Position numbers and translations under genes: made by a program. Shown one piece after another: positions 5,342-47,491 of a stretch of DNA of 64,000 nt (the first letter of the stretch is position 1; the number at the start of each line of letters is the position of its first letter). The stretch is from Thermovibrio sp. (lineage in GTDB: Bacteria; Aquificota; Aquificia; Desulfurobacteriales; Desulfurobacteriaceae). The notes beneath the pieces were generated by a model, which searched no databases, was not told where the DNA came from, and saw only the letters and a program-made list of their open reading frames with translations. The stretch spans positions 1 through 64,000 of the forward strand of contig WFNZ01000023.1 in the NCBI GenBank assembly GCA_015488335.1, written 5' to 3'.

Positions 5342-7561
5342 TCACCTCTTCAGCTTAAAAACTTTCTCAAGGTGGTCAAGCAAGAACCCTGCCGGCTCAA
5401 CCTGAGGGAACGGTTTTTTGTGGCAGGCAAGGCAGACTCCCCGCCTGTCAAGGAGAGCTCTCTCCCTGCTGTTCAGCGGCCTTGAGCCCTTAAAGTGATG
5501 GCCTACCGTTTGGAGCTGTTTCCCCGTTTCTGTTACAAACCTGCTCCAGTCTGACGGCAGGTCTGGAATTGCGTTAATCTGAACCCTTGCCCTTTCGGGA
5601 ACAACTCTTCCATCTTGAGTTTTTATGTCAACAACGTAGGGTTTATCAGGGGGAGCCATCAGCCTTCCGCCGGAAATTCCATACCCCATTGCTACAGGGT
5701 TGTTGTGGCAACTTTCACAGCTCCTTGCCCTCTTTGAAACTGTGTGGGGTTGAACGGGGGCTATGTCTATTGTCCTCTGCCCCTCTTTTCCTGCACCTTC
5801 AGCATCTGGAACCCTGAAGATGTGGTTGAGGATTATCGGTTTTCCATCTTTCCCTATAACGGTTATAACTGTCTGGCAGCCGGGAATTGCCGGAGAGACC
5901 CTGTGTTCTCCGTTAACGACAAGGGGCGGGTTCTCCCACCTTAAGTAGCTTCTCGTCTCCTTTACCTCTCCATCTATTTTCTTCCCCTTTCCTTCAAGGC
6001 CGTTTTTCAGGTGCTCTTCGCCTTTAGACAGCCAGTTGCAGTGCTTTTTCCCTTTGGAGTAGTCAATCCTTACGTGGCAGCCGTAGCACTGGGGAGCCCA
6101 GTCTGAGTGGCAGGTGTAACATTCTAACTTCCCGTGGCCTTTAACGAACTTCATTGCAACGAGGGCTTCTTTGGGGATTTTTCCTTCTTCGTATAGGAGT
6201 TTTAAAGGTTTAAGTATCAGGTCTTTCCCGCCGGCGGTGTGAACTACAACTAAGTTCCCCCTGCGGACAACATTTCCAAAGGGATTCCCCCTTGACGTTA
6301 AGAGGTATCCGTCTTCCGGTTTGTAGACTTTTCCAAATTTCATGTAGTCTGGAAGTTTGAAAACGACGCCCCTGGGTTTTCTGTAATTCCCCTCAAGCTC
6401 GTCGCCGTAGCCTAAGGGGAGCTCCCACGGGAACTTATCAACCGTTCCGTGGCAGTCCTGACACTCAACTTCCACAGCCGCAAGGTTTGTTCCTGCAACT
6501 ATTCCGTTTCCGTGGATGTCAAGGGTTGTGTGGCAGTCCTGACAGGTCATCCCTTTTTCGTAGTGGACGTCTGGGTGCAGGTGGATGTAGCGCTTTGTGT
6601 GGAGTTTTGGCTGCATTGAACCGTCTTCAGAGTAGGGAGAGCCGTAGGGAGACTCCATAAGCCCTTCGTATGAAACCCCTATCCTCTTTCCCCTGTTGTG
6701 GCAGGAGTTGCAGGTCTCTACTGGAATACCGCTGTAGGTTATTCCGTGAACTCTTACCTTTAAGCTCCTTGTTCCCTGAAGCTCGTGAACCAGCGGGTAG
6801 CCCGGTTTATCCTTTGGAATTGTTGGGTCTTTCCCCTCGTAGTAGCCCTCGTTTGAGTAGGGAACGTGGCAGGCAGAACAGCCCATTCCCCTGTAGTCTC
6901 CCCTCTTTGTCCTTCCCTTAACCCCTGTGTGGCACCTTAAACACTCTTCCCTCAGGTATGTGTAAACGGCCTTTCTTACGTCTTTTTCAACTTCTTCAGC
7001 CTTTGGAGCTTTCGGAACCGGAACGGTCTCTTCGGGGAAAAGCTGAGGTTCAGCCTTTTTCAGCTCTTCCACGTATTTCCTGTATTCGTCTGTTCCGTAG
7101 AGCTTTCCGCTCTTAACTTTGTAGTTGGCAACTCTGTGGTTGTATCCTTCAAGGCCGCCGAAAGCCCAGAGAGCTCCCTGAATCTTCCCCACCTCTGTAA
7201 ACATTAGAGAGGTCTTCTGAACCTTTACCTCAAACCTGTGGCACAGTCCGCAGGTGTGCTTGTTTATCCACGGGCTTCCAGGGTCAGGGTAGAAATCTTC
7301 CGCTCCGCCTATCTTTTTAAGGGCTTCAACGGTTCCAGAGTGAGCCTCTTTCTCCGTCTTTCCCTCAGGGTTTCCACCGTGGCACACTATACAGGTGTTG
7401 TCGGGGTATCCAATTCTTTTGGCAACGGCTTTAAGGGCTTTTGCCATTTTGCTCTCTGGCGGAACGATGTTCTCTATTCTTCTGTGACACTTAAGGCAGT
7501 TGTTGGCCTCAGCTTCACTGAAAATGAGAGTTAAGGCAAGTATGGGAATCAGTTTTCTCAA
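5342..7561 (-). CDS. dodecahaem (12 CXXCH) periplasmic cytochrome c
   Basis: Exported multihaem cytochrome of about 739 residues with twelve CXXCH haem c sites: CLKCH, CIVCH, CGLCH, CLRCH, CSACH, CNSCH, CQDCH (twice), CYTCH, CYGCH, CESCH and CLACH. A Sec signal peptide (RKLIPILALTLIFSEAEA) precedes the first site. I prefer the TTG start at 7561, which has GGGGGA upstream and shares TTGA with the stop of the preceding permease; a GTG at 7573 would add four residues. No known enzyme class is evident, though spacing and SCHNN/GTVD segments suggest an electron-transfer or sulfur/nitrogen-oxide reductase-type protein. It is the second gene of a two-gene minus-strand unit. Confidence 0.85.
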   Translation of the reverse strand: MRKLIPILALTLIFSEAEANNCLKCHRRIENIVPPESKMAKALKAVAKRIGYPDNTCIVCHGGNPEGKTEKEAHSGTVEALKKIGGAEDFYPDPGSPWINKHTCGLCHRFEVKVQKTSLMFTEVGKIQGALWAFGGLEGYNHRVANYKVKSGKLYGTDEYRKYVEELKKAEPQLFPEETVPVPKAPKAEEVEKDVRKAVYTYLREECLRCHTGVKGRTKRGDYRGMGCSACHVPYSNEGYYEGKDPTIPKDKPGYPLVHELQGTRSLKVRVHGITYSGIPVETCNSCHNRGKRIGVSYEGLMESPYGSPYSEDGSMQPKLHTKRYIHLHPDVHYEKGMTCQDCHTTLDIHGNGIVAGTNLAAVEVECQDCHGTVDKFPWELPLGYGDELEGNYRKPRGVVFKLPDYMKFGKVYKPEDGYLLTSRGNPFGNVVRRGNLVVVHTAGGKDLILKPLKLLYEEGKIPKEALVAMKFVKGHGKLECYTCHSDWAPQCYGCHVRIDYSKGKKHCNWLSKGEEHLKNGLEGKGKKIDGEVKETRSYLRWENPPLVVNGEHRVSPAIPGCQTVITVIGKDGKPIILNHIFRVPDAEGAGKEGQRTIDIAPVQPHTVSKRARSCESCHNNPVAMGYGISGGRLMAPPDKPYVVDIKTQDGRVVPERARVQINAIPDLPSDWSRFVTETGKQLQTVGHHFKGSRPLNSRERALLDRRGVCLACHKKPFPQVEPAGFLLDHLEKVFKLKR

Positions 7562-8586
7562 CTTTTCCCCCACTTTTTCTTAAAAACGTAATAGACGCAC
7601 AGTGTTAAGAGTATAACAGAGGAGACCATGTTTAAGAGGCCGTTTGACTCCTCTACCCTTAAAACGCTCTTCGGGTCTATGTGGAACTGATGGAACGTGT
7701 AGTCTATTAAAAGGCCAAAGAGAAGGCTTCCGATGATAACTGTTAAGAGGTAAACAACAGTTGCCCTTTTCCCTAAAGTTTCCTTTACAACCCCAATTGA
7801 AACGGCGTTTGTTGCAGGGCCTGCAGTTAAGAAGAGGAAAGCCGCTCCCGGGGGAGCTCCCGCCAGAATGAGAGATGCCGCTATGGGAATGGAAGAGGTT
7901 GCGCAGACGTACATCGGAACGGCAATTAATAGGGCTGCTGTATAGCCAAAGAGAGAGCTTGAAAGGGCAGTTTTCAGGTAGTTTTCGCCTAAAACAGTTA
8001 TGAGAGCTCCAACGATTAAACCAACCAGCAGAGGTTTTGCAATGTCTGAGAGGATGTTCTTAAAGCCGTAGCGGAGAGCTCCCCGGAGTGAGAACTTCTT
8101 TTCTTTCTCCTCTGCCGGAACCGAACAGCTGCAGCCGCAACACCCGCAGGTGGAAGTTTCAACCTTTTCTTCTCCTTTCAATGTGAAAAGGCCTACAACT
8201 CCTGCGACAACTGCAATAACTGTTGAGGCAACGATTCTAAGAACCGTAAAGAGCCATCCGAAAACACCGTAGGTGGCAAAAATTGAATCAACCCCGGTTA
8301 TTGGAGTTGCAATCGTAAACGCCAGAACTGCTCCGCTGTTTGCCCCCTTCTTCTTAAGTGCGCTTATGAACGGGATAACGCTGCAGGAACAGAGGGGCAG
8401 GGGAATCCCAAAGAGAACAGCCTTGAAAACAGAAGAGATTTTTTTCTCTCCAAGGTGTTTCTTTATAAAGTCGTCCGGGAAAATCTCGTGGAGTAGCCCG
8501 GCAAGGAAGAGGCCTAATAGTAGGTAGAGGCTTATTGAGTTTGTAAATTCCCAGAAAGCCTTTAAAAACTGTAGTGCTAACTCCAA
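7558..8586 (-). CDS. SO_0444/ArsP-type permease (DUF318)
   Basis: Integral membrane permease of 342 residues with about eight to ten helices. The family hallmark GIPLPLCSCSVIP lies at about residues 60-72, and a second conserved half contains VPMYVCATSSIPIAASLILAG. The central cytoplasmic loop carries a cysteine cluster STCGCCGCSCSVP (about 146-158), likely a metal-binding segment, as in the SO_0444 group proposed to export Cu or Zn; ArsP relatives export methylarsenicals. TTG start with AGGGGG upstream. Its stop overlaps the start of the dodecahaem cytochrome gene, so the two are translationally coupled. Substrate is inferred from family only. Confidence 0.8.
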   Translation of the reverse strand: MELALQFLKAFWEFTNSISLYLLLGLFLAGLLHEIFPDDFIKKHLGEKKISSVFKAVLFGIPLPLCSCSVIPFISALKKKGANSGAVLAFTIATPITGVDSIFATYGVFGWLFTVLRIVASTVIAVVAGVVGLFTLKGEEKVETSTCGCCGCSCSVPAEEKEKKFSLRGALRYGFKNILSDIAKPLLVGLIVGALITVLGENYLKTALSSSLFGYTAALLIAVPMYVCATSSIPIAASLILAGAPPGAAFLFLTAGPATNAVSIGVVKETLGKRATVVYLLTVIIGSLLFGLLIDYTFHQFHIDPKSVLRVEESNGLLNMVSSVILLTLCVYYVFKKKWGKS

Positions 8587-37653: not shown

Positions 37654-38745
37654 TTGGACTTCCACATAGAGAGAGCAAAGATTCTTCCAAAGTCAAATCT
37701 CTGGGGTTTCTTAGAGGGGTTAAAGGGCGTCGCTCCCCTTATAGCTCCAGTAGAGAGGGGAAATAAGACCGTTTTCTCTGAGGTAAATGATATTTCTGAT
37801 GTAACAATTAACTACACCAGGACTGTTCTTCCCCCCAAGAAGTTCTTAGTTCCGTACAGAAGAGTAAGGTTTACTTACTCAACTGGAGAGCTATCATTCT
37901 CCTCAAACTTTAAAGCCCGCGACCAGATAATATTCGGTATCCACTCCTGCGATCTCCACGGTATTTCAATCCTTGACTCTGTTTACCTAAAGGAGAGCCC
38001 TGACCCTCGTTATCTTGAGGTGAGGAAAAAGACTGTTCTTATTGGAATTTCCTGTATGCCCGACGATTACTGTTTCTGCCTTTCAACAGGGACAGCCTTT
38101 CCTGATGGGGCCAACTGGGACCTGTTCTTAACAGATATTGGAGCAGATTACTTTGTATCAATAGGAAGTCCTAAAGGCGATGAACTGATAATAGAACTGA
38201 AGGAGCTCTTTAGAGATATTGAGCGTGAAGATCTGGAGCTCTACAAACGTTCAACCCGAAAGAAGAAAGAGGCCTTTAGAGATAAGAAACTTCCCGACCT
38301 GGAGAGGATTTCTCAGCTGATAGAGCTTGAGTATGAGTCTCCGGTCTGGGATGAAGAGGCGAAGAGATGTCTTTCCTGCGGAACCTGTACAAACGTCTGT
38401 CCTACCTGCTTTTGCTATACCTCTGTAGACGTTCCCGATTTTGAAGGGAAAACTGTAAAGAGAGTTGAGTTCACAACTTCCTGTCAGTATCCCTACTACT
38501 CCTTGGTTGCCGGAGGGCACTACTTCAAGCCAACAAGGACGGCCCGTTTCAGACACCGTTACTACCACAAGTTGGTTGGTTATCCCTACCAGATTGAGAA
38601 GTTGGGTTGCGTGGGCTGTGGCCGTTGTAGTGCAGAGTGCCCGGCAAAGATAAGTATGGTTGAAACTCTTATTAAGCTGAGAGGAGCTGATGAAAAAGAG
38701 TCTGGAAAAGCTACTGAACAAACCTCTGCCGGTAGATCCCTTTAA
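37654..38745 (+). CDS. hydB: group 3b hydrogenase (sulfhydrogenase) beta subunit, Fe-S
   Basis: 363-residue electron-transfer subunit like Pyrococcus HydB and AsrA. The C-terminal third carries two [4Fe-4S] motifs: CLSCGTCTNVCPTCFCY (about 241-257) and CVGCGRCSAECPAK (about 324-337). The N-terminal region includes FGIHSCDLHGI. TTG start behind GGGAGGAAACG. It is the first gene of beta-gamma-delta-alpha, the same order as in archaeal sulfhydrogenases, and overlaps hydG by 56 bp. It passes electrons between the flavin subunit and the nickel subunits or to sulfur. Confidence 0.88.
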   Translation: MDFHIERAKILPKSNLWGFLEGLKGVAPLIAPVERGNKTVFSEVNDISDVTINYTRTVLPPKKFLVPYRRVRFTYSTGELSFSSNFKARDQIIFGIHSCDLHGISILDSVYLKESPDPRYLEVRKKTVLIGISCMPDDYCFCLSTGTAFPDGANWDLFLTDIGADYFVSIGSPKGDELIIELKELFRDIEREDLELYKRSTRKKKEAFRDKKLPDLERISQLIELEYESPVWDEEAKRCLSCGTCTNVCPTCFCYTSVDVPDFEGKTVKRVEFTTSCQYPYYSLVAGGHYFKPTRTARFRHRYYHKLVGYPYQIEKLGCVGCGRCSAECPAKISMVETLIKLRGADEKESGKATEQTSAGRSL

Positions 38746-39568
38746 GCCTCAAAGAGCAGTTATAACAGATGTAGAGGAGCTGGCTCCTGATCACAAGAAG
38801 TTTACTTTCGCTTTTCTTGATGAGAGTCTTGCAAAGGTCTGGGATTACATTCCCGGTCAGTTCGTCATGCTCACTGTTCCAAAGGCTGGAGAGATCCCTA
38901 TTTCCATATGTTCTTCTCCAACCCGTAAAGGTTTTTTTGAGTTAACCGTAAGGAAAGTGGGAAGGAAGACAAAGGTTCTTCACCGACTTAAGCCGGGAGA
39001 TGTTGTTGCAGTTAGAGGACCTTACGGAAACGGCTTTCCCGTTGGGATTATGGAAGGACACAACGTTCTCATTATTGCCGGTGGTCTGGGAATGGCCCCT
39101 TTAAGGTCCTTGGTCTGGTACATCCTGGACAGGCGCAGCCGGTTTAAAGAGGTCTATCTCCTTTACGGAACGAGAAATTATGAGTTTGTTCTCTACAAAG
39201 AGGAGCTCCGTCGCCTCAAAGAAAGGGAAGACATTAAGTGCCTTTTCTGTTTAGACAGGGTAGAAACGCCAGAGGACAGGGAATGGGCCGATATAGAGGG
39301 ACTTCTTACTGAGCTTATTCCACAGGTTAAGCTTGAACCCTCTGAAACTTACGTTGCCGTCTGTGGTCCTCCTGTTGCCTACAAGTTCATCGGAAAGGAG
39401 CTCCTCAAAAACGGTTATCCTGAGAGCCAGATATTCGTCTCTTTAGAGAGGAAGATGGAGTGCGGCATAGGAAAGTGTGGCCACTGTCAGATTGGCTACA
39501 AGTTTGCCTGTGTTGACGGCCCCATCTTCCCTCTGTGGGACACAAAAAACCTTCCGGAGATGCTCTAA
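38690..39568 (+). CDS. hydG: group 3b hydrogenase gamma subunit, FAD/NAD(P)-binding
   Basis: 292-residue ferredoxin-NADP reductase-type subunit. FAD-binding barrel with FVMLTVPKAGEIPISI, NAD(P)-binding part with IAGGLGMAPLRSLVWY (about 126-141), and a C-terminal [2Fe-2S] site CGIGKCGHCQIG plus the next cysteine in FACVDGP, as in dihydroorotate dehydrogenase PyrK. Provides the NAD(P)H site of the hydrogenase. Its ATG follows GAGAGGAG inside the hydB gene; its TAA shares a base with hydD's ATG. Confidence 0.9.
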   Translation: MKKSLEKLLNKPLPVDPFKPQRAVITDVEELAPDHKKFTFAFLDESLAKVWDYIPGQFVMLTVPKAGEIPISICSSPTRKGFFELTVRKVGRKTKVLHRLKPGDVVAVRGPYGNGFPVGIMEGHNVLIIAGGLGMAPLRSLVWYILDRRSRFKEVYLLYGTRNYEFVLYKEELRRLKEREDIKCLFCLDRVETPEDREWADIEGLLTELIPQVKLEPSETYVAVCGPPVAYKFIGKELLKNGYPESQIFVSLERKMECGIGKCGHCQIGYKFACVDGPIFPLWDTKNLPEML

Positions 39569-40338
39569 TGGTGAGAGTAGGGATTATGGGTTTAACGGGC
39601 TGTTCGGGCTGTCAGTGTGAAATCCTCAACTGTGAGGATGCGATAGGTAAGCTCATTGGAAAGGTTGAGTTTGCCTACTTCCCCTTAGCTCAAGATGTGA
39701 ACGACTTTTCAGAGTTTGACATCCTCTTTGTTGAGGGTTCTGTTTCCACAAACCTAGACAGAGAGAAACTGGTTAAGGGTAGAGAGAGAACGAAGATACT
39801 CGTTGCCGTTGGAACCTGTGCCTGTTACGGAGGTGTTCAGTCTCAGAGAAACGATGAGATCTCTTTAGACGAAATGCTTAAGGCTGTTTACGGAGAGAAC
39901 AAACTTGACCTGGAAGTTTTTAAACCTATGCCTCTTAGCGATGTTGTTGATGTTGATTACGAACTTCCTGGTTGTCCTTTAGATAAGAGGCAGTTTGTCT
40001 ACACCGTTGCTTCACTCCTGAATGGAGTTGAGCCTTTCTTCCCCAAAATCCCTGTCTGCCACGAGTGTAAGCTTAGTGAGACTGACTGTTTGCTTCTTAA
40101 AGGAATTCCCTGTCAGGGGCCTGTTTCGTTCTCTGGCTGTGGAGCTCCCTGCACCTCAGCCGGCGTAGGATGTCAGGGGTGCAGAGGGAACTGCGACTTC
40201 CCGAACTTTGACGAGATTCTCTCCATCTATCGGGACATCGGTCTCTCTTTTGACGATTCCGTGAAGTTCTTAAAGGTCTTCCGAGGAAAAACAATTTCCG
40301 GTTTAAAAGTGGGGTTTTCCGATGAAAAGGGAGCTTAA
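39568..40338 (+). CDS. hydD: group 3b [NiFe] hydrogenase delta (small) subunit
   Basis: 256-residue small subunit. Proximal cluster ligands appear in GLTGCSGCQCEIL (about 8-20), VGTCACYGG (about 90) and PGCPLDKRQF (about 141). The C-terminal half has additional Fe-S cysteines (CHECKLSETDC, SGCGAPCTSAGVGCQGC), as in group 3 enzymes. ATG overlaps the hydG stop (TAATG). Overlaps hydA by 17 bp. Relays electrons from the active site to HydB/HydG. Confidence 0.9.
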   Translation: MVRVGIMGLTGCSGCQCEILNCEDAIGKLIGKVEFAYFPLAQDVNDFSEFDILFVEGSVSTNLDREKLVKGRERTKILVAVGTCACYGGVQSQRNDEISLDEMLKAVYGENKLDLEVFKPMPLSDVVDVDYELPGCPLDKRQFVYTVASLLNGVEPFFPKIPVCHECKLSETDCLLLKGIPCQGPVSFSGCGAPCTSAGVGCQGCRGNCDFPNFDEILSIYRDIGLSFDDSVKFLKVFRGKTISGLKVGFSDEKGA

Positions 40339-41626
40339 CGTTAACCACCTTTCAAGGGTAGAGGGCCACGGTGCCGTTGATATTGTTTTTGAGAATGAAA
40401 GGCTTAAAGAGATAAGGCTTAGATTTACAGAGGGGCCTCGGTTCTTTGAGTTTATTACGAGAGAAAGGCTCTACTCTGAAATTCCAAAGATCGTTTCCCG
40501 TATCTGCGGCATTTGTTACGTTTCCCACAGGCTTGCTTCTGCCTTTGCCGTTGAAGATGCCTTTGGCGTTAAAGTTCCGAGGGAAGTGGAACTCCTCAGA
40601 AGGCTTTTGGTAGTTGGAGAATACCTGGAGAGCCACGCACTTCACCTCTACTTCCTTGCCCTTCCCGACTACATGGGATATCCCGGTGCCATTCAGATGG
40701 CCAAAGACTATCCCAACGTCGTTAAGAGGGGATTCAGAATTAAAGAGCTTGGGAACAAAATAATGAAATTATTAGGAGGGAAGACAGTTCACGGTGAGAA
40801 CATTCTGGTAGGCGGTTTTGCCTCTTTTCCAACTGAAGAAGCCCTTGAGTCTGTTGGAAATGAGCTGAGATCCATTATCCCTGAGCTTGAGGCTACGCTT
40901 TCCCTGTTTGATTCCCTTGACTATCCTGAGTTCACGTCAGAAGTTTCCGTTGCCGTTTCGGTTGATTCTAAGGACGTTACAGAGTTTTCCGACACTGTTT
41001 CCACCTCTGATGGAGTCCGGTTTACGAGAAAGGAGTACGAGCTTTTCATCAGGGAAGAGACCGTTCCGTATACAACTGCAAAAGTTTCAAGGTTTGAAGA
41101 GGAGCCGTTTCTTATAGGTCCCCTTTCAAGAGTGAACCTCCACCTTGAGGAGCTCCACCCGGCCGTAAAGAAAGAGATATCACTTCTGAAAACAGATTTT
41201 CCCTCTAAAAACTCTTTTCACAGCAACGTTGCAAGGGCTGTTGAGCTGTTAAACGTTGCCTACAGGGGAGTAGAGATAGTTGAGGAGCTCCTTAACTGTG
41301 AACGTACTCCTTCCAAAATTTCTGTTGAGCCCAGAGCTGGAACGGGCTACGGCATAAAGGAAGCTCCGAGGGGGACACTCTACCACAGGTACTCCTTCTC
41401 AGATGACGGTCACTGCACCGGTGCAAACATCATAACTCCAACAGCCCAGCTTCAGGCGGCCATTGAGAGTGATTTGAGGAACCTTACCGAAACCTACAGC
41501 TCCGTTTCAGATAGAGAACTCAGAAAGCTTGCGGAGATGCTCATAAGGGCTTACGACCCGTGAATTGCCTGTGCAGTCCACCAGTTCGGTGGAGAGTTTG
41601 AAACTGTGAGGATAGAGAGGTTGTAA
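40322..41626 (+). CDS. hydA: group 3b [NiFeSe] hydrogenase alpha (large) subunit with TGA-encoded selenocysteine
   Basis: Catalytic H2-activating subunit, 434 residues when the in-frame TGA at 41561-41563 is read through. N-terminal motifs: SRVEGHG (11-17) and the L1 nickel ligands in RICGICYVSH (C62, C65). The conventional frame stops after AYDP, exactly where the C-terminal L2 motif DPCxxCxxH should begin; beyond the TGA the same frame continues IACAVHQFGGEFETVRIERL, so residue 414 is U in DP-U-IACAVH with C417 and H420 intact. The restored stop TAA (41624-41626) overlaps the ATG of the next gene, the coupling style used elsewhere in this cluster. A SECIS-like hairpin follows the TGA. The last residues after VR may be removed during maturation, as in archaeal relatives. 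Ordinary annotation would give a 413-residue truncated protein. A TGC/TGT sequencing error is the main alternative. Confidence 0.9.
41561..41593 (+). promoter_or_regulatory. bacterial SECIS-like element at the hydA TGA
   Basis: After the TGA, TCCACC (41577-41582) pairs with GGTGGA (41588-41593) around a five-base loop AGTTC, a 6-bp perfect stem. The loop starts 19 bases after the TGA and contains G-T, close to the 18-base spacing and GU-bearing loop of the E. coli fdhF element recognised by SelB. CAGT (41574-41577) and ACTG (41603-41606) might extend it. Confidence 0.65.
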
Positions 41627-42111
41627 TGGTGAAATTGGGAGAACTTCAGGAGTGTGCGCTCCTTAAAAACTTTACTAATGATGAATTAAAGGAGCTGGCC
41701 GGCTACTTTGACCTTATAACCTTTGGTAAAGGGGAGCTCCTCTTTGACGAGTTTGACCAGCCGGAGTGTTTTTACCTGATAAAGGAGGGAAAGGTTGGCC
41801 TTTACAGGAGTGACAACTTTGGCCGGTGGACTAAGGTTGCGGTTGTTTACGGCGGAACCCCCTTAGGAGAGTGTGCTTTCTTCCTTAATTCTCCCCACTC
41901 TTTGAGGGCAGTTGCAGAGTCTTCTGTAAAGGCGTTCAGGATAGACAGGGCTTCTTTTGATGAGCTCAGGGAGAAAAGGCCGGAGCTCCTTGTAAAGTTC
42001 ATGGAGATTGTTCTCTCTGTTCTCGCCGAAAGGCTTAAAACCGAAGACAGGAAATTTTCTGAACTGTGCGGATTCTTTTCCGTTCCGGGAGGAGGCAGAT
42101 GGAGAAGATAG
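41626..42111 (+). CDS. cyclic-nucleotide-binding-domain protein without DNA-binding domain
   Basis: 161-residue protein made of one CRP-type cyclic-nucleotide-binding domain (FYLIKEGKVGLYR, GGTPLGECAFFLNSPHSLRAVAESSVKAFRID) and a helix, with no helix-turn-helix. The GE pair is present, but an arginine in the usual phosphate-binding position is not obvious; the ligand may not be cAMP. Its ATG overlaps the restored hydA stop and its 3' end overlaps the next gene by 13 bp, so it is co-translated between the two hydrogenases and may gate one of them. Confidence 0.8.
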   Translation: MVKLGELQECALLKNFTNDELKELAGYFDLITFGKGELLFDEFDQPECFYLIKEGKVGLYRSDNFGRWTKVAVVYGGTPLGECAFFLNSPHSLRAVAESSVKAFRIDRASFDELREKRPELLVKFMEIVLSVLAERLKTEDRKFSELCGFFSVPGGGRWRR

Positions 42112-43970
42112 TCTACTCTCTCTTTTTGGTTCCCTGGGTGCTGGCCCTTGCAGTCTTTCTTCTGCCGGGAGCCCGTTTCCACAGGTTGAGGCAGCTGATT
42201 ACCTTTCTCTCGCTTCCTGCTCTATCCTTTCTTACCTATTTGGTCTGGAACGGCCATCTTCCTCTGCAGATAGAAACTCCTCGGTGGTTAAATCTGGCCT
42301 TTACCGTTTACGACTACGGTCTTCTTCTCTATTTCCTCTATCAGGGTATAAAGTTCAGGGATTTCCTGGTAACTGTTCTGGCACTCTTTCAGCTCTTTCT
42401 CCTCACCTGGATTCTTCTGATAATGCCTGAAAGTTCCGTTCCCGACTTCTACGTAGACAGGCTTTCGGCCTTTATGTTCCTGATAGTTTCAACTGTTGGA
42501 ACCCTTATCTGTATCTACGCAACCAAGTATATGGAACAGGAGAACTTAGAGAGAGAAAATAGGTTTGTTGCTATTCTCCTCTGGTTCTTAGGGGTTATGA
42601 ACCTTGCCGTTTCTGTAAACAACATTGAGTGGTTCTTTGCACTTTTTGAAACAACAACTCTTGCTTCTTACATCCTCATCAGGTTCAGGTGGGATGAAGT
42701 AAGTATTAAAAACGCCCTCAGAGCTCTCTGGATGAACCAGATAGGGGGAATAGCCATCCTTTTAGGCCTTCTCTTTGGAATAAAGTACTACAGTTTTACC
42801 CACTTTACTCAGTTCCTCTCCCTATCTGGAAAGCCGGCCATTGTTATGATTCCTTTAGGCTTCCTTGCCGTTTCAGCCCTTGTTAAAGGTGCTCAAATGC
42901 CCTTCCACAGGTGGCTCCTTGGAGCTATGGTTGCTCCAACTCCCGTTAGCGCAATTCTCCACTCGGCTACTATGGTTAAGATAGCTCCTTACCTCATACT
43001 CAGGCTCTCACCGGTAATAAAGGGAACACTTCTTGCAAAGCTCCTCATTATTACTACCGGTTTTGTCTTTGTCGGTGCAGGTCTTTTAGCACTTACACAG
43101 GAAAACTTTAAGAAGATCCTCGCTTACTCAACCATTTCCCTTTTAGGTCTTATGATGCTTACTGCCAGTATGGGGAGCTCCATGGCTATTCTTGCTTCTC
43201 TTACCCTCATTCTCTTTCACGCCGTTGTTAAAGCCCTTCTCTTTATGGAAGCCGGGGTTATGGAGAAGCTATTTAAAGCCAAGTATATAGAGGATATAAG
43301 GAGGCTTGTAGAGAGAGCTCCCATCACAGTTGCCTTCACTTCTATCGGTTTTATGAGCATGACCATTGTTCCCTACGGGATTTTCGTTTCAAAGTGGATG
43401 GCCATTGAAGAAGCTTCAAACTTCCTCTCCCACGGGGCTTACGTTGGTTCAATCATCTTTATGGCCACAGGTGGCGTAATCCTCGCCCTTCTCTACTTTA
43501 AGGTTATAGGTGTTATGACCAGGAAAAGGGGAGAGTTTTTAAAGTTTCAGTTAGAAAAAGTCCCGTTTGCGTACCTTTTCTCAACCGTTCCCCTGGTTCT
43601 TTTCGTTATTGTTGGTTCCATCTTTATAGCCAAGCTCCTCTGTCTTTCAGTTAACCCGGTCGTTGAAGCGGTTATTGGAACTCCAGCTCCCATCATAGCC
43701 AAAGGGCTTACTCTGATCACTCCTGTTTCGGAGCTCTACGGGTGGCAGATAATCGGTGCCTTTGTTCTACTTCTCATCGTTCCAATACTTGCATACTTTG
43801 TCCACTTTACGGGAACAGACAGGGTTTACGAGTACACCTGTGGCGAAAAACTTGAACTGAACATAGGAACTTACAACTTCTTCTGCATTCAGGTTGTTGA
43901 ACCCTTTGTTGAGACGGCAGCTGTTGCTCTTTTCATCCTTACCCTTGTTCTCGGGGGAGGTCTCGTATGA
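42099..43970 (+). CDS. group 4 hydrogenase proton/ion-pumping subunit (NuoL/HyfB/MrpA-like)
   Basis: 623-residue polytopic membrane protein of the complex I antiporter family. ATG at 42099 has GGGAGGAGG upstream. Landmarks: a membrane segment with WFFALFETTTLASYILIRFRW, the antiporter core lysine region VKGAQMPFHRWLLGAMVAPTPVSAILHSATMVK (about 268-300), and LLALTQENFKKILAYSTISLLGLM. The C-terminus ends with GTYNFFCIQVVEPFVETAAV, as in HyfB/EchA-like subunits. Couples hydrogenase electron flow to H+ or Na+ transport. Confidence 0.88.
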   Translation: MEKIVYSLFLVPWVLALAVFLLPGARFHRLRQLITFLSLPALSFLTYLVWNGHLPLQIETPRWLNLAFTVYDYGLLLYFLYQGIKFRDFLVTVLALFQLFLLTWILLIMPESSVPDFYVDRLSAFMFLIVSTVGTLICIYATKYMEQENLERENRFVAILLWFLGVMNLAVSVNNIEWFFALFETTTLASYILIRFRWDEVSIKNALRALWMNQIGGIAILLGLLFGIKYYSFTHFTQFLSLSGKPAIVMIPLGFLAVSALVKGAQMPFHRWLLGAMVAPTPVSAILHSATMVKIAPYLILRLSPVIKGTLLAKLLIITTGFVFVGAGLLALTQENFKKILAYSTISLLGLMMLTASMGSSMAILASLTLILFHAVVKALLFMEAGVMEKLFKAKYIEDIRRLVERAPITVAFTSIGFMSMTIVPYGIFVSKWMAIEEASNFLSHGAYVGSIIFMATGGVILALLYFKVIGVMTRKRGEFLKFQLEKVPFAYLFSTVPLVLFVIVGSIFIAKLLCLSVNPVVEAVIGTPAPIIAKGLTLITPVSELYGWQIIGAFVLLLIVPILAYFVHFTGTDRVYEYTCGEKLELNIGTYNFFCIQVVEPFVETAAVALFILTLVLGGGLV

Positions 43971-44809
43971 GTTACTGGACAGCCTTTATACTGACTCTCT
44001 TTTCTCCTGTTATAGGGGGCTTTATCTACGGGCTTGAGAGGATAGTAAGGGCCAGAATGCAGGGACGTGTCGGCCCTCCACTACTTCAGCCCTTCTACGA
44101 CTTTTTCAAGCTGATGGATAAAAGGAGCATAATAATTCACTCTTTCCACGCTTTTATGGGTGTTATGTACCTGATCGGAACCTGGTTTGCCCTCTTTGTC
44201 CTCCTTTCAGGGGGAGACCTCCTGATTGCCATCTTCTTCCACGTCCTCTCTCTGGCCTTTTTAGTTGTTGGCGGTTTCAGCGTCCGTTCTCCCTATTCGG
44301 TTATTGGGGCGATGAGGGAACTCCTCCACATGGTTGCATACGAGCCCCTCTACGTTCTGAGTGCCACAGCTCTCTACCTCGTTACGGGAACGTTCCAGGT
44401 TTCCGGCATTCTCCACTCAGAGCACGTGCCTTTAATTTACCTGCCTCTCCTCTTTATCGCTGTTCTCTTTTCCCTTCCTGCAATCCTGAAGAAATCACCT
44501 TTTGACACAGCAGAAGCTCACCAGGAGATAATCGGTGGGCCTGAAATAGAATACTCTGGAAAGTTCTACGAAGCCGTCTACACTGCAAAGTGGATAGAGT
44601 ACGTCTATGCCTTCTTCTTCATATTCCTCTTTGCCGGAGGGAACCACATTCTGGGAGCTCTCCTTATCATCTTTGCCTTCTTCTTCTTCAATCTCCTTGA
44701 TAACGTAACTGCCAGGGTCAACTTCAGGCAGATGGTTGCCTTTCACTGGTACATACTGATTCCCCTTGCTGTAACAAATCTCATGCTTATAGCTCTCTGG
44801 AGGAGCTGA
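43967..44809 (+). CDS. group 4 hydrogenase membrane subunit (NuoH/EchB/HycD-like)
   Basis: 280 residues, eight predicted helices. It has the NuoH-family signature ERIVRARMQGRVGPPLLQPFYDFFKL (about 24-49) and the loop KKSPFDTAEAHQEIIGGPEIEYSG (about 166-189), which connects the membrane arm to the nickel subunit. Overlaps the preceding gene by four bases (ATGA) and shares one base with the small-subunit gene. Confidence 0.92.
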   Translation: MSYWTAFILTLFSPVIGGFIYGLERIVRARMQGRVGPPLLQPFYDFFKLMDKRSIIIHSFHAFMGVMYLIGTWFALFVLLSGGDLLIAIFFHVLSLAFLVVGGFSVRSPYSVIGAMRELLHMVAYEPLYVLSATALYLVTGTFQVSGILHSEHVPLIYLPLLFIAVLFSLPAILKKSPFDTAEAHQEIIGGPEIEYSGKFYEAVYTAKWIEYVYAFFFIFLFAGGNHILGALLIIFAFFFFNLLDNVTARVNFRQMVAFHWYILIPLAVTNLMLIALWRS

Positions 44810-45339
44810 TGGACTTTAAAAGCTTTAGGAAAAAGTCTCCCTGGATACTCCACTACAACACCGGAAGCTGTAACGGCTGCGACATTGAGATTCTGGCCTG
44901 CCTCTCTCCAAAGTACGATGTTGAAAGGTTTGGAATCCTCAACAGAGGAAACCCGAAGCAGTCCGACATCCTTCTTGTAACCGGCCCTGTAACAAAGAGG
45001 GCGAAAGAGAGACTTCTGCGTCTTTACTTTGAAATGCCCGAGCCAAAAGTAGTTGTTGCCGTTGGAGCCTGCGCCTGTTCCGGTGGGGTCTTTCGCCACA
45101 TGTACAACGTGGAGAACGGAGTAGATAAGGTTATTCCCGTTGATGTCTACGTTCCCGGCTGTGCTGCAAGGCCAGAGGCCATAATAGACGGTCTTATAAA
45201 GGCCTTAGAGATTCTAAAGTCTAAAGGGAAAGACCTTGAACTACCCAGCTGGTGCAAAGCCGACGTGAAACCCCCCGTTAACAGGGCAAAACTTCTAAAC
45301 AGCTGTCTGGAGGAGTTCCATGGTTGTAGAAGAGATTAG
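44809..45339 (+). CDS. group 4 [NiFe] hydrogenase small subunit (NuoB/EchC/HycG-like)
   Basis: 176 residues holding the proximal [4Fe-4S] cluster: TGSCNGCDIEI (C21, C24), VGACACSGG (about 86) and VPGCAARPEAIIDGLIKAL (about 119). Shorter than group 3 small subunits and without extra clusters, as usual for group 4. Starts at TGATG with the previous gene and overlaps the next by 20 bp. Confidence 0.92.
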   Translation: MDFKSFRKKSPWILHYNTGSCNGCDIEILACLSPKYDVERFGILNRGNPKQSDILLVTGPVTKRAKERLLRLYFEMPEPKVVVAVGACACSGGVFRHMYNVENGVDKVIPVDVYVPGCAARPEAIIDGLIKALEILKSKGKDLELPSWCKADVKPPVNRAKLLNSCLEEFHGCRRD

Positions 45340-45664
45340 GGTTCCCTTAAGGGACGTGAGGAGGGCAATAAAGGAATTTTACAACCCAAGTGAGTGGCAC
45401 TTTATAACTGTGAACGGCGTTGACCTTGGCGGAAAAGTTGAGCTTAAGTGGTTTTTCACGAAATATGGAGAGAAAGAGCACTTTAAGGTAGTTACTACAG
45501 AAGCTTCTTACGACGATGAAATTCCAACAATAACCTACCTTATCCCTTCTGCCTGGATTTCGGAGTGGGAACTTGCAGATCTCTTTGGCCTGAACGTTGA
45601 GGGCGCAAAGAAGGGTCTCTTCTTAGACCCTGAAAGTCCCCAAGCCCCCTTAAGGAGAGGTTAG
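45320..45664 (+). CDS. group 4 hydrogenase NuoC/EchD-like subunit
   Basis: 114 residues corresponding to the NuoC (30 kDa) domain: WHFITVNGVDL, a central beta-sheet, then PSAWISEWELADLFGLNVEGAKK, where NuoC proteins have the ExE-D-G interaction motif. ATG inside the small-subunit gene. One base separates its stop from the large-subunit ATG. Forms the interface of peripheral and membrane arms. Confidence 0.85.
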   Translation: MVVEEIRVPLRDVRRAIKEFYNPSEWHFITVNGVDLGGKVELKWFFTKYGEKEHFKVVTTEASYDDEIPTITYLIPSAWISEWELADLFGLNVEGAKKGLFLDPESPQAPLRRG

Positions 45665-45665
45665 T

Positions 45666-46751
45666 ATGGGAAAGAGGATAACCGTTCCTTTTGGAAGTCA
45701 GCACGTTGCCCTTCCAGAACCTGTAAGGTTTGTATTCCAGACCGAGAACGAGAAGATTGTTGATGTTGAAGTTGATGTGGGTTACGTCCACAGGGGAATT
45801 GAAAAGGCCTGTGCAACAAAATTCAAATACATGCAGGTTGGTTACGTTGTTGCAAGGGTTTGCGGTCTCTGTTCTATTTCCCATACGCTGGGTTACGTTA
45901 CAGCCGTAGAGAGGCTTATGGGTGTTGAGGTTCCCAAAAGGGCTCTCTACCTGAGGCTTCTCGTCAGTGAGCTTGACCGGATCCACTCTCACCTACTTGC
46001 CATGGGACATACGGCTGAAGTTGCCGGGTACGAGAACCTGTTTATGCAGACCTTCCGCCACAGAGAACTTGTTATGGAGATGTTGGAGCTCCTTACCGGC
46101 AACAGGGTTCAGTTTGACTACGCCTGTATAGGTGGAGTTAACAGGGATTTAACTTCAGATGTTGAGAAAGTTTTAAGAGGAAAGCTGAAGGTTTTGGAAG
46201 AGAAAGCTCAATGGTTAAAAGATGTGTATGAGAACGACTTTTCTCTGAACCTCAGGTGGAAGGGAATAGGCGCTGTTACAGAAGAGATGGCAAAAGAGAT
46301 GAACGTTGTTGGCCCCCCTGCAAGGGCTGTAGGTCTTAAAACAGACGTTAGAGCTGAGTTTGATTATTTACCTTTTAAGGAAGTTGGCTACAGAATGGTT
46401 GTTCTGAAAGGTGGCTCAATTTATGAAAGAAACTTGGTTAGGGCTCTTGAGATTCTCAACTCAATAGAGATGTGTTGGAACATCTTAGACGGCCTTCCGG
46501 AGGGAGATATAAAGGTTCCTGTAAAAGGTCTTCCTGAAGGAGAGATGTTCGTCAGGATTGAAGCCCCCAGAGGAGAGCTCTTCTACTACATCAGAGGTTC
46601 TAAAAAGCTGATTTTGGACAGGGTAAGGATAAGGGTTCCTACCTTTGCCAACATCCCTGTGATGAAAGAGCTCTTTATTGGAATGGACTACGCCGATGTT
46701 CCGGCAACTGTTATAAGCTTTGACCCCTGTCTTTCCTGTACTGCAAGGTAG
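45666..46751 (+). CDS. group 4 [NiFe] hydrogenase large subunit (NuoD/EchE/HycE-like)
   Basis: 361 residues. L1 nickel motif RVCGLCSISH has C66 and C69; L2 is FDPCLSCTAR with C355 and C358, all cysteines, so this second hydrogenase is a normal [NiFe] enzyme. The protein ends three residues after C358, so no C-terminal peptide is left to be cleaved. HRGIEKACATKFKYMQ and SELDRIHSHLLAMGH are NuoD-like. Predicted to couple ferredoxin-linked H2 chemistry to ion transport. Confidence 0.93.
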   Translation: MGKRITVPFGSQHVALPEPVRFVFQTENEKIVDVEVDVGYVHRGIEKACATKFKYMQVGYVVARVCGLCSISHTLGYVTAVERLMGVEVPKRALYLRLLVSELDRIHSHLLAMGHTAEVAGYENLFMQTFRHRELVMEMLELLTGNRVQFDYACIGGVNRDLTSDVEKVLRGKLKVLEEKAQWLKDVYENDFSLNLRWKGIGAVTEEMAKEMNVVGPPARAVGLKTDVRAEFDYLPFKEVGYRMVVLKGGSIYERNLVRALEILNSIEMCWNILDGLPEGDIKVPVKGLPEGEMFVRIEAPRGELFYYIRGSKKLILDRVRIRVPTFANIPVMKELFIGMDYADVPATVISFDPCLSCTAR

Positions 46752-46760
46752 GAGGGAACG

Positions 46761-47081
46761 TTGAGAGTTTGGGCTGTTTTAACCACCTTTCTCCTTATGA
46801 CTTCTCCCGTTCTTGCCTGTAGCAGCGACTGTTATCAGTGCCACTCAAACATACCCAATGATAAAAACCATAAGGTTTTAAAAACCTGTATTCAGTGTCA
46901 TCCCAACCATTCTGAAAAGGGAATGTCTGGATGCGGTTCAGACTGTTTTGACTGTCACGATTACAGAAAGGTGATGAGTTTGTCTAAAGCCCACAGAGTT
47001 TTAGTCAGGTGTATTGGGTGTCATAAAAGGTTTAAAGAGAGGGAGCTCCCGCCTTACTACAGAGAACTGTTGGGAGGTTAG
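46761..47081 (+). CDS. tetrahaem cytochrome c inside the group 4 hydrogenase operon
   Basis: 106 residues with four CXXCH haem sites: CYQCH, CIQCH, CFDCH and CIGCH. The N-terminus is an export signal (VWAVLTTFLLMTSPVLA) followed by Cys20, so the start could be a plain Sec site or a lipobox (VLAC). TTG start with GGAGGGAACG upstream. It is located outside the cytoplasmic membrane yet encoded between the large subunit and the ferredoxin subunit of a cytoplasm-facing hydrogenase, an arrangement not part of known Ech or Hyc operons. Confidence 0.85.
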   Translation: MRVWAVLTTFLLMTSPVLACSSDCYQCHSNIPNDKNHKVLKTCIQCHPNHSEKGMSGCGSDCFDCHDYRKVMSLSKAHRVLVRCIGCHKRFKERELPPYYRELLGG

Positions 47082-47083
47082 CC

Positions 47084-47491
47084 TTGAAAGAGATGCTTAT
47101 AGAGACTATTAAAAACCTCTTTTCAAAGCCTGTAACTGTTAAATATCCGCAAGAGCCCTCACCCCCACCTGCCAACTACAGAGGGTTAATAGTTTACAAA
47201 GAGGAGCTCTGTATTTTCTGCACCAAGTGTGAAATGGTCTGCCCACCTGGGGCTATAAGGTTTACCTACGGAGAAGATGGAAGTAAGAAGTACCACTACA
47301 ACCCCTACCTCTGCATCTACTGTGGAGAGTGTGTAAGGGCTTGTCCCAAACCCGGATGTCTTACTCAAGTTGAGAAGACAGCACCACCAGATAGTTCAAT
47401 TCCCAACTGGGATGAACTTGAGAGGAGGGCTGAAAAGAGTAAAAAGGCCTTTCTGAAGGCAAAGGCTATTGCGAAGAAGTCGGGTAGTTAG
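47084..47491 (+). CDS. group 4 hydrogenase ferredoxin subunit (NuoI/EchF/HycB-like)
   Basis: 135 residues with two [4Fe-4S] motifs, CIFCTKCEMVCPPGAI (about 44-59) and CIYCGECVRACPKPGC (about 79-94), like NuoI/EchF. Its TTG start is taken because GGGAGG precedes it; ATG three codons later is possible. The C-terminal 40 residues are lysine-rich. It delivers electrons between ferredoxin and the small subunit. Last gene of the hydrogen locus; converges on a minus-strand gene, overlapping by four bases. Confidence 0.9.
   Translation: MKEMLIETIKNLFSKPVTVKYPQEPSPPPANYRGLIVYKEELCIFCTKCEMVCPPGAIRFTYGEDGSKKYHYNPYLCIYCGECVRACPKPGCLTQVEKTAPPDSSIPNWDELERRAEKSKKAFLKAKAIAKKSGS

Follow-up and report, generated by a model that had tools for sequence, protein, structure and literature searches.

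The 64,000-nucleotide stretch of Thermovibrio sp. DNA analysed here (henceforth the window) contains a complete six-gene operon for an Ech-type group 4 hydrogenase on the + strand (42066-47491), with the gene order echABCDEF and one additional gene, encoding a c-type cytochrome, between echE and echF (Table 1). EchE bears two Ni-binding motifs, RVCGLC at residues 64-69 and DPCLSCTAR at the C-terminus, whose cysteines are invariant in nine members. The presence of both motifs marks the protein as a catalytic [NiFe] hydrogenase and not merely a relative of complex I; its nearest solved relative by sequence is MBH (6cfw). The gene preceding echA, whose end overlaps the echA start, encodes a cNMP-binding-type protein that is a candidate regulator of ech, outside the complex; three other genomes (G007, G009, and G012) showed no match to it in their ech regions. 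Directly upstream lies a group 3b sulfhydrogenase-like operon, and this hyd-ech neighbourhood recurs in most of the Desulfurobacteriaceae members that could be read far enough.

Table 1. Genes and features of the window, with profile matches or context.
Feature	Position	Strand	Match or context
12-haem protein	5342..7573	-	12 CXXCH sites
Permease	7558..8586		next gene upstream of the 12-haem protein; DUF318-type by eye
Group 3b sulfhydrogenase-like operon	37654..41563	+	directly upstream
cNMP-binding-type regulator (candidate)	41626..42111	+	Pfam cNMP_binding 1.2e-15; between group 3b operon and ech
echA, NuoL/MrpA-type antiporter-like membrane subunit, 634 aa	42066..43970	+	Pfam Proton_antipo_M 1.6e-42
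echB, NuoH-like membrane subunit, 280 aa	43967..44809	+	Pfam NADHdh 4e-48
echC, NuoB-like small subunit, 176 aa	44809..45339	+	Pfam Oxidored_q6 6.1e-32
echD, NuoC-like subunit, 114 aa	45320..45664	+	Pfam Complex1_30kDa 7.8e-10
echE, large (NuoD-like) subunit	45666..46751	+	Pfam NiFeSe_Hases, Complex1_49kDa
Tetrahaem c-type cytochrome, exported, 106 aa, TTG start	46761..47081	+	between echE and echF
echF, NuoI-like 2x[4Fe-4S] ferredoxin-type subunit, 135 aa	47084..47491	+	Pfam Fer4 family; TIGR01971 below its cut-off

The original prediction had described an exported 106-residue protein with four haem sites, encoded between the large and the NuoI-like subunit, and our analysis bears this out for the position, the open reading frame, the signal peptide and all four CXXCH motifs (residues 24, 43, 62, and 84). 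The reading frame is tightly packed into the operon, separated by 9 bp from echE and by 2 bp from echF, with a strong Shine-Dalgarno sequence at its own start (AGGAGG) and at that of echF (GGGAGG). More than two CXXCH motifs arose in none of 100,000 shuffles of the protein's own residues. The N-terminus, MRVWAVLTTFLLMTSPVLA followed by a cysteine, forms a signal peptide whose cleavage site is type-I-like, and the mature part lacks a transmembrane stretch. Comparison with two congeners shows the gene to be under purifying selection (dN/dS about 0.3 and 0.12), less tightly than echE (0.05 and 0.03).

In an alignment of the 13 Desulfurobacteriaceae members all four haem sites are invariant in every sequence, and so are Cys20, Cys58, His37, His50, and His78. 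The architecture is CX3CX2CH...H...CX2CH in two copies, with an extra cysteine before each half. The window protein contains seven histidines, four in the CXXCH motifs and three of distal type (His37, His50, and His78), leaving one of the four haems without an obvious conserved second histidine; the Nitrosophilus homologue lacks the His50 equivalent. Cys20 is probably the first mature residue. We considered a lipoprotein cysteine at this position and disfavour it, since the preceding residues (VLA, AVA, ALA, AWA, VLS, and the like) fit a signal peptidase I site better. The recurrence of the extra cysteine before the third haem (Cys58) also makes a disulphide or a repeat feature likelier than a lipoprotein cysteine, short of proving it; a disulphide between Cys20 and Cys58 would be a guess.

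To which family does this cytochrome belong? No Pfam or NCBIfam model scored above its cut-off for the members tested. The Cytochrom_c3_2 model weakly matches all 13 members, below its cut-off, with a best E value of 1e-4 and 1e-3 for the window member, and the scores for PF02085 and PF14537 stay under the curated cut-offs (19.5 vs 25 and 15.6 vs 22.9). A single-chain structure model reached a pLDDT of 62, too poor for use, and a fold search with it gave no match with E below 5. Searching solved structures by sequence returned only matches that are weak or driven by composition (nitrite reductase, ACIII, and the RAD14 zinc finger), all of which we rejected.

We then asked how the cytochrome is distributed relative to Ech. 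Among 22 Desulfurobacteriaceae genomes, this EchE is present in 15 and the cytochrome in 13; the cytochrome accompanies this Ech in 13 of 15 genomes and occurs in none of the seven lacking it, four of which are only 83-91% complete, so that some of the joint absences may be assembly gaps. Synteny, which the original prediction had named as a check, was kept in large part: the order echE-cytochrome-echF is found in 12 of the 13 family homologues, but the gene is unlinked in one genome of the window's own genus (G004), and two further Desulfurobacteriaceae genomes with Ech lack it (G007, apparently D. thermolithotrophum, and G009). Among the genera that keep the gene at the identical site the protein differs by about 50%. 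In G007 and G009, each 99% complete, echE and echF are adjacent, echABCDEF is intact, and no cytochrome of this family was found anywhere in the genome. G017, the closest neighbour of G007 in the EchE tree, carries the cytochrome at the usual site, pointing to a loss in G007. In G004 the ech operon is likewise intact without the cytochrome, which sits on a different contig, flanked by a macrodomain gene and a zinc-ribbon gene. This solo copy (L018, 6061-6417, - strand) lies close to the contig end and to a transposase-like helix-turn-helix open reading frame, and its product has a longer C-terminus.

Outgroup operons give the direction of change. In two genomes of the sister family (G022 and G023; EchE identity 65-68%) echF directly follows echE, with no cytochrome gene in between. 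The same ech order, again without a cytochrome separating E and F, occurs in Hydrogenimonas, Sulfurovum, Sulfurospirillum, and another Campylobacterota MAG (EchE 57-62%), and five Campylobacterota loci hold an intact echABCDEF without a cytochrome inside. The adjacency of echE and echF in the outgroups indicates that the operon originally had six genes and that the cytochrome was inserted later. The statement that classical group 4 operons have no cytochrome c holds, and extends to all outgroup operons examined. When EchA-F were compared between genomes with and without the cytochrome, one consistent difference was seen in about 1,740 aligned positions, an I/L exchange in EchA, with only two cytochrome-free genomes in the comparison. 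The operon of the window is a real, conserved, lineage-specific ech variant with an accessory cytochrome.

A profile search of 397 Campylobacterota genomes recovered the cytochrome in 116, nearly always in single copy. This is an uncharacterised, unnamed tetrahaem family that is widespread in Campylobacterota and Desulfurobacteriaceae. Of 20 neighbourhoods that we read, 15 are unrelated to hydrogenases, and the family as a whole lies mostly in housekeeping settings such as hemB-ribA-rsmG-x-CYT-glyS (gene names by eye from the sequences). Most Campylobacterota that carry both the cytochrome and Ech have the two unlinked. The original prediction named a location elsewhere in relatives as grounds for refutation, and such locations occur: most Campylobacterota copies lie away from hydrogenase genes and the G004 copy is unlinked. 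The remaining five neighbourhoods are ech-linked, with echA-B-C-D-E-F followed by a gene for a 2-hydroxyacid dehydrogenase and then by the cytochrome, all on one strand, and G106 is a sixth such case. The dehydrogenase and cytochrome genes touch, overlap or nearly so in these loci. The cytochrome is commoner in Campylobacterota with this Ech (26/36) than in those without it (90/361), in counts that ignore kinship. A further homologue resides on the Nitrosophilus labii plasmid pHRV44 (L062, 8941-9291), which has type IV transfer genes; the (incomplete) table of PLSDB has no gene entered at this position.

Five of the six ech-linked Campylobacterota copies were included in the cytochrome tree, where they branch with the Desulfurobacteriaceae cytochromes with a support of 90/96, just under the strict threshold. 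The EchE of the same lineage groups with that of other Campylobacterota (support 96/100). The differing trees point to histories of cytochrome and operon that are at least partly different, as would fit a cytochrome exchanged horizontally between Campylobacterota and Desulfurobacteriaceae. Lineages of two phyla have linked one tetrahaem family to the same hydrogenase in two ways, and the second linkage may be of either independent or shared origin.

Presence tests of NapA-like molybdoenzymes, octahaem Hao, and group 1 hydrogenase singled out none of them as the redox partner of the cytochrome. We rejected the NapA-like molybdoenzyme because G009 has one without the cytochrome, and Hao because it is not enriched (12 of the 116 cytochrome-bearing Campylobacterota genomes). 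Group 1 hydrogenase, present in 366 of the 397 Campylobacterota genomes, is too universal for such a test. A link to the 12-haem protein near the start of the window had also been proposed. Its haem count was given correctly, but the protein is similar to ExtM from operons for selenite/tellurite reduction (253.5 bits against a cut-off of 800), lies 39 kb away, and shares no context with the cytochrome, so that we rejected this link.

What, then, does the cytochrome do? Group 4 hydrogenases transfer electrons between H2 and ferredoxin in a cytoplasmic arm, and their NuoH/NuoL-like membrane arm moves ions; we know of no redox cofactor in the latter. Electrons would therefore have no plausible route between Ech and a soluble periplasmic cytochrome, and Ech does not need the latter, as the species that have Ech without it indicate. 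On balance we lean towards the cytochrome being a soluble, stand-alone periplasmic electron carrier, an optional companion of Ech and not a subunit, that is co-expressed with hydrogen metabolism; we infer the carrier role, the co-expression, and the lack of direct contact with Ech from the genomic evidence. The gene would go back to an old Campylobacterota family of stand-alone cytochromes and would have joined the ech transcription unit in an ancestor of most Desulfurobacteriaceae, where co-transcription would cause the cytochrome to be made when hydrogen metabolism is on. On the cytoplasmic side, Ech would couple electron exchange between H2 and ferredoxin to ion flow via EchA/EchB; on the opposite side of the membrane, the cytochrome would most likely receive electrons from periplasmic enzymes that oxidise quinol or H2 and hand them to acceptors in the same compartment. 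A gene unrelated to Ech would not be expected to show both the conserved insertion and the second ech linkage; this speaks against a role as carrier only and may reflect a direct functional link.

The closest such link would be a true extra subunit through which electrons leave the complex towards periplasmic carriers or the 12-haem cytochrome, as originally predicted. The location between two subunit genes, the tightly packed translation signals, and the strong synteny would fit, but we regard this as very improbable: the cytochrome is missing from intact operons and unlinked elsewhere, it has no membrane anchor and no matching signature in EchA-F, transmembrane electron transfer would have to cross an arm in which no redox cofactor is known to us, and the 12-haem protein is ExtM-like and distant. 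With Ech intact in G007 and G009 without the cytochrome and no cofactor path known, the outer-face electron exit is unsupported. We consider it just as improbable that the cytochrome docks on the outer face of Ech and makes the turnover or regulation of the complex responsive to the redox state of the periplasm.

Hydrogen cycling, in which H2 released by Ech crosses the membrane and is oxidised by a periplasmic group 1 hydrogenase, with the cytochrome taking the electrons and the operon joining both ends, is conceivable but doubtful. Desulfovibrio offers an analogy, its type I cytochrome c3 accepting electrons from periplasmic hydrogenase, and the cytochrome studied here is tetrahaem, exported, and apparently co-transcribed with Ech, with ech linkage in two lineages of vent bacteria. 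However, Ech is expected to consume H2, towards ferredoxin reduction, in H2-oxidising autotrophs, and G007 and G009 keep Ech without the cytochrome. T. ammonificans is reported to have both Ech and the group 1 hydrogenase Hyn, but the reported Hyn includes a third subunit, HynC, and it is the quinone pool, rather than a soluble cytochrome, to which this enzyme is assigned (PMC5441870). We also think it unlikely that a general-purpose cytochrome, exchanged horizontally, is expressed from the ech promoter as a neutral passenger whose function is unrelated to hydrogen. Most Campylobacterota copies do have unrelated surroundings, one is carried by the N. labii plasmid with its transfer genes, and the gene was lost or relocated in three Desulfurobacteriaceae with the operon unaffected; yet a neutral passenger would hardly account for a site kept across several genera despite the divergence of the protein, for a second ech linkage in another phylum, or for the commoner occurrence with this Ech in Campylobacterota (kinship again ignored). 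The role of the cytochrome can be tested in pairs of species that differ in its presence, for example T. ammonificans and D. thermolithotrophum.

The carrier function that we favour is likened to that of class III cytochrome c3 or of NapM/NrfB. The cytochrome shares with class III cytochrome c3 and Cytochrom_c3_2 proteins (PF02085, PF14537) its small size, export, four haems, paired CXXCH motifs, and candidate histidine ligands, and differs from class III cytochrome c3 in falling under the curated Pfam cut-offs and in the extra invariant cysteine before each half. Moreover, class III cytochrome c3 has four distal histidines, giving every haem bis-His ligation, whereas only three histidines outside the CXXCH motifs are invariant here. 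NapM of the nap operon is likewise a small periplasmic tetrahaem carrier, with weak profile similarity (E about 1e-4), but the window cytochrome is not encoded with NapA and belongs to a different family and a different operon. The window's own genome also has a napC-napM-napA-like cluster (L134, G000:C22:8000-13500), whose NapM-like protein is a different tetrahaem protein.

The hydrogenase itself resembles the Ech-type enzyme reported for Nautilia profundicola (GAmH_0607-0612; PMC2628731), with six genes in identical order and the catalytic cysteine motifs. The operon of the window differs in having one more gene, that of the exported tetrahaem cytochrome, inserted between echE and echF, and no cytochrome c in a group 4 hydrogenase operon was found described in the open-access literature. 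A close published counterpart is the T. ammonificans cluster, given as seven genes, 'echABCDEFG' (Theam_0476-0482), in a paper whose main text mentions no multihaem or tetrahaem protein there (PMC5441870). The genome that we take as T. ammonificans (G013) contains the six ech genes and the cytochrome, exactly the seven genes of the window, and from this count the published set seems to include the cytochrome. We therefore caution that one of the seven ech genes published for T. ammonificans probably encodes a periplasmic cytochrome rather than a subunit of the hydrogenase.
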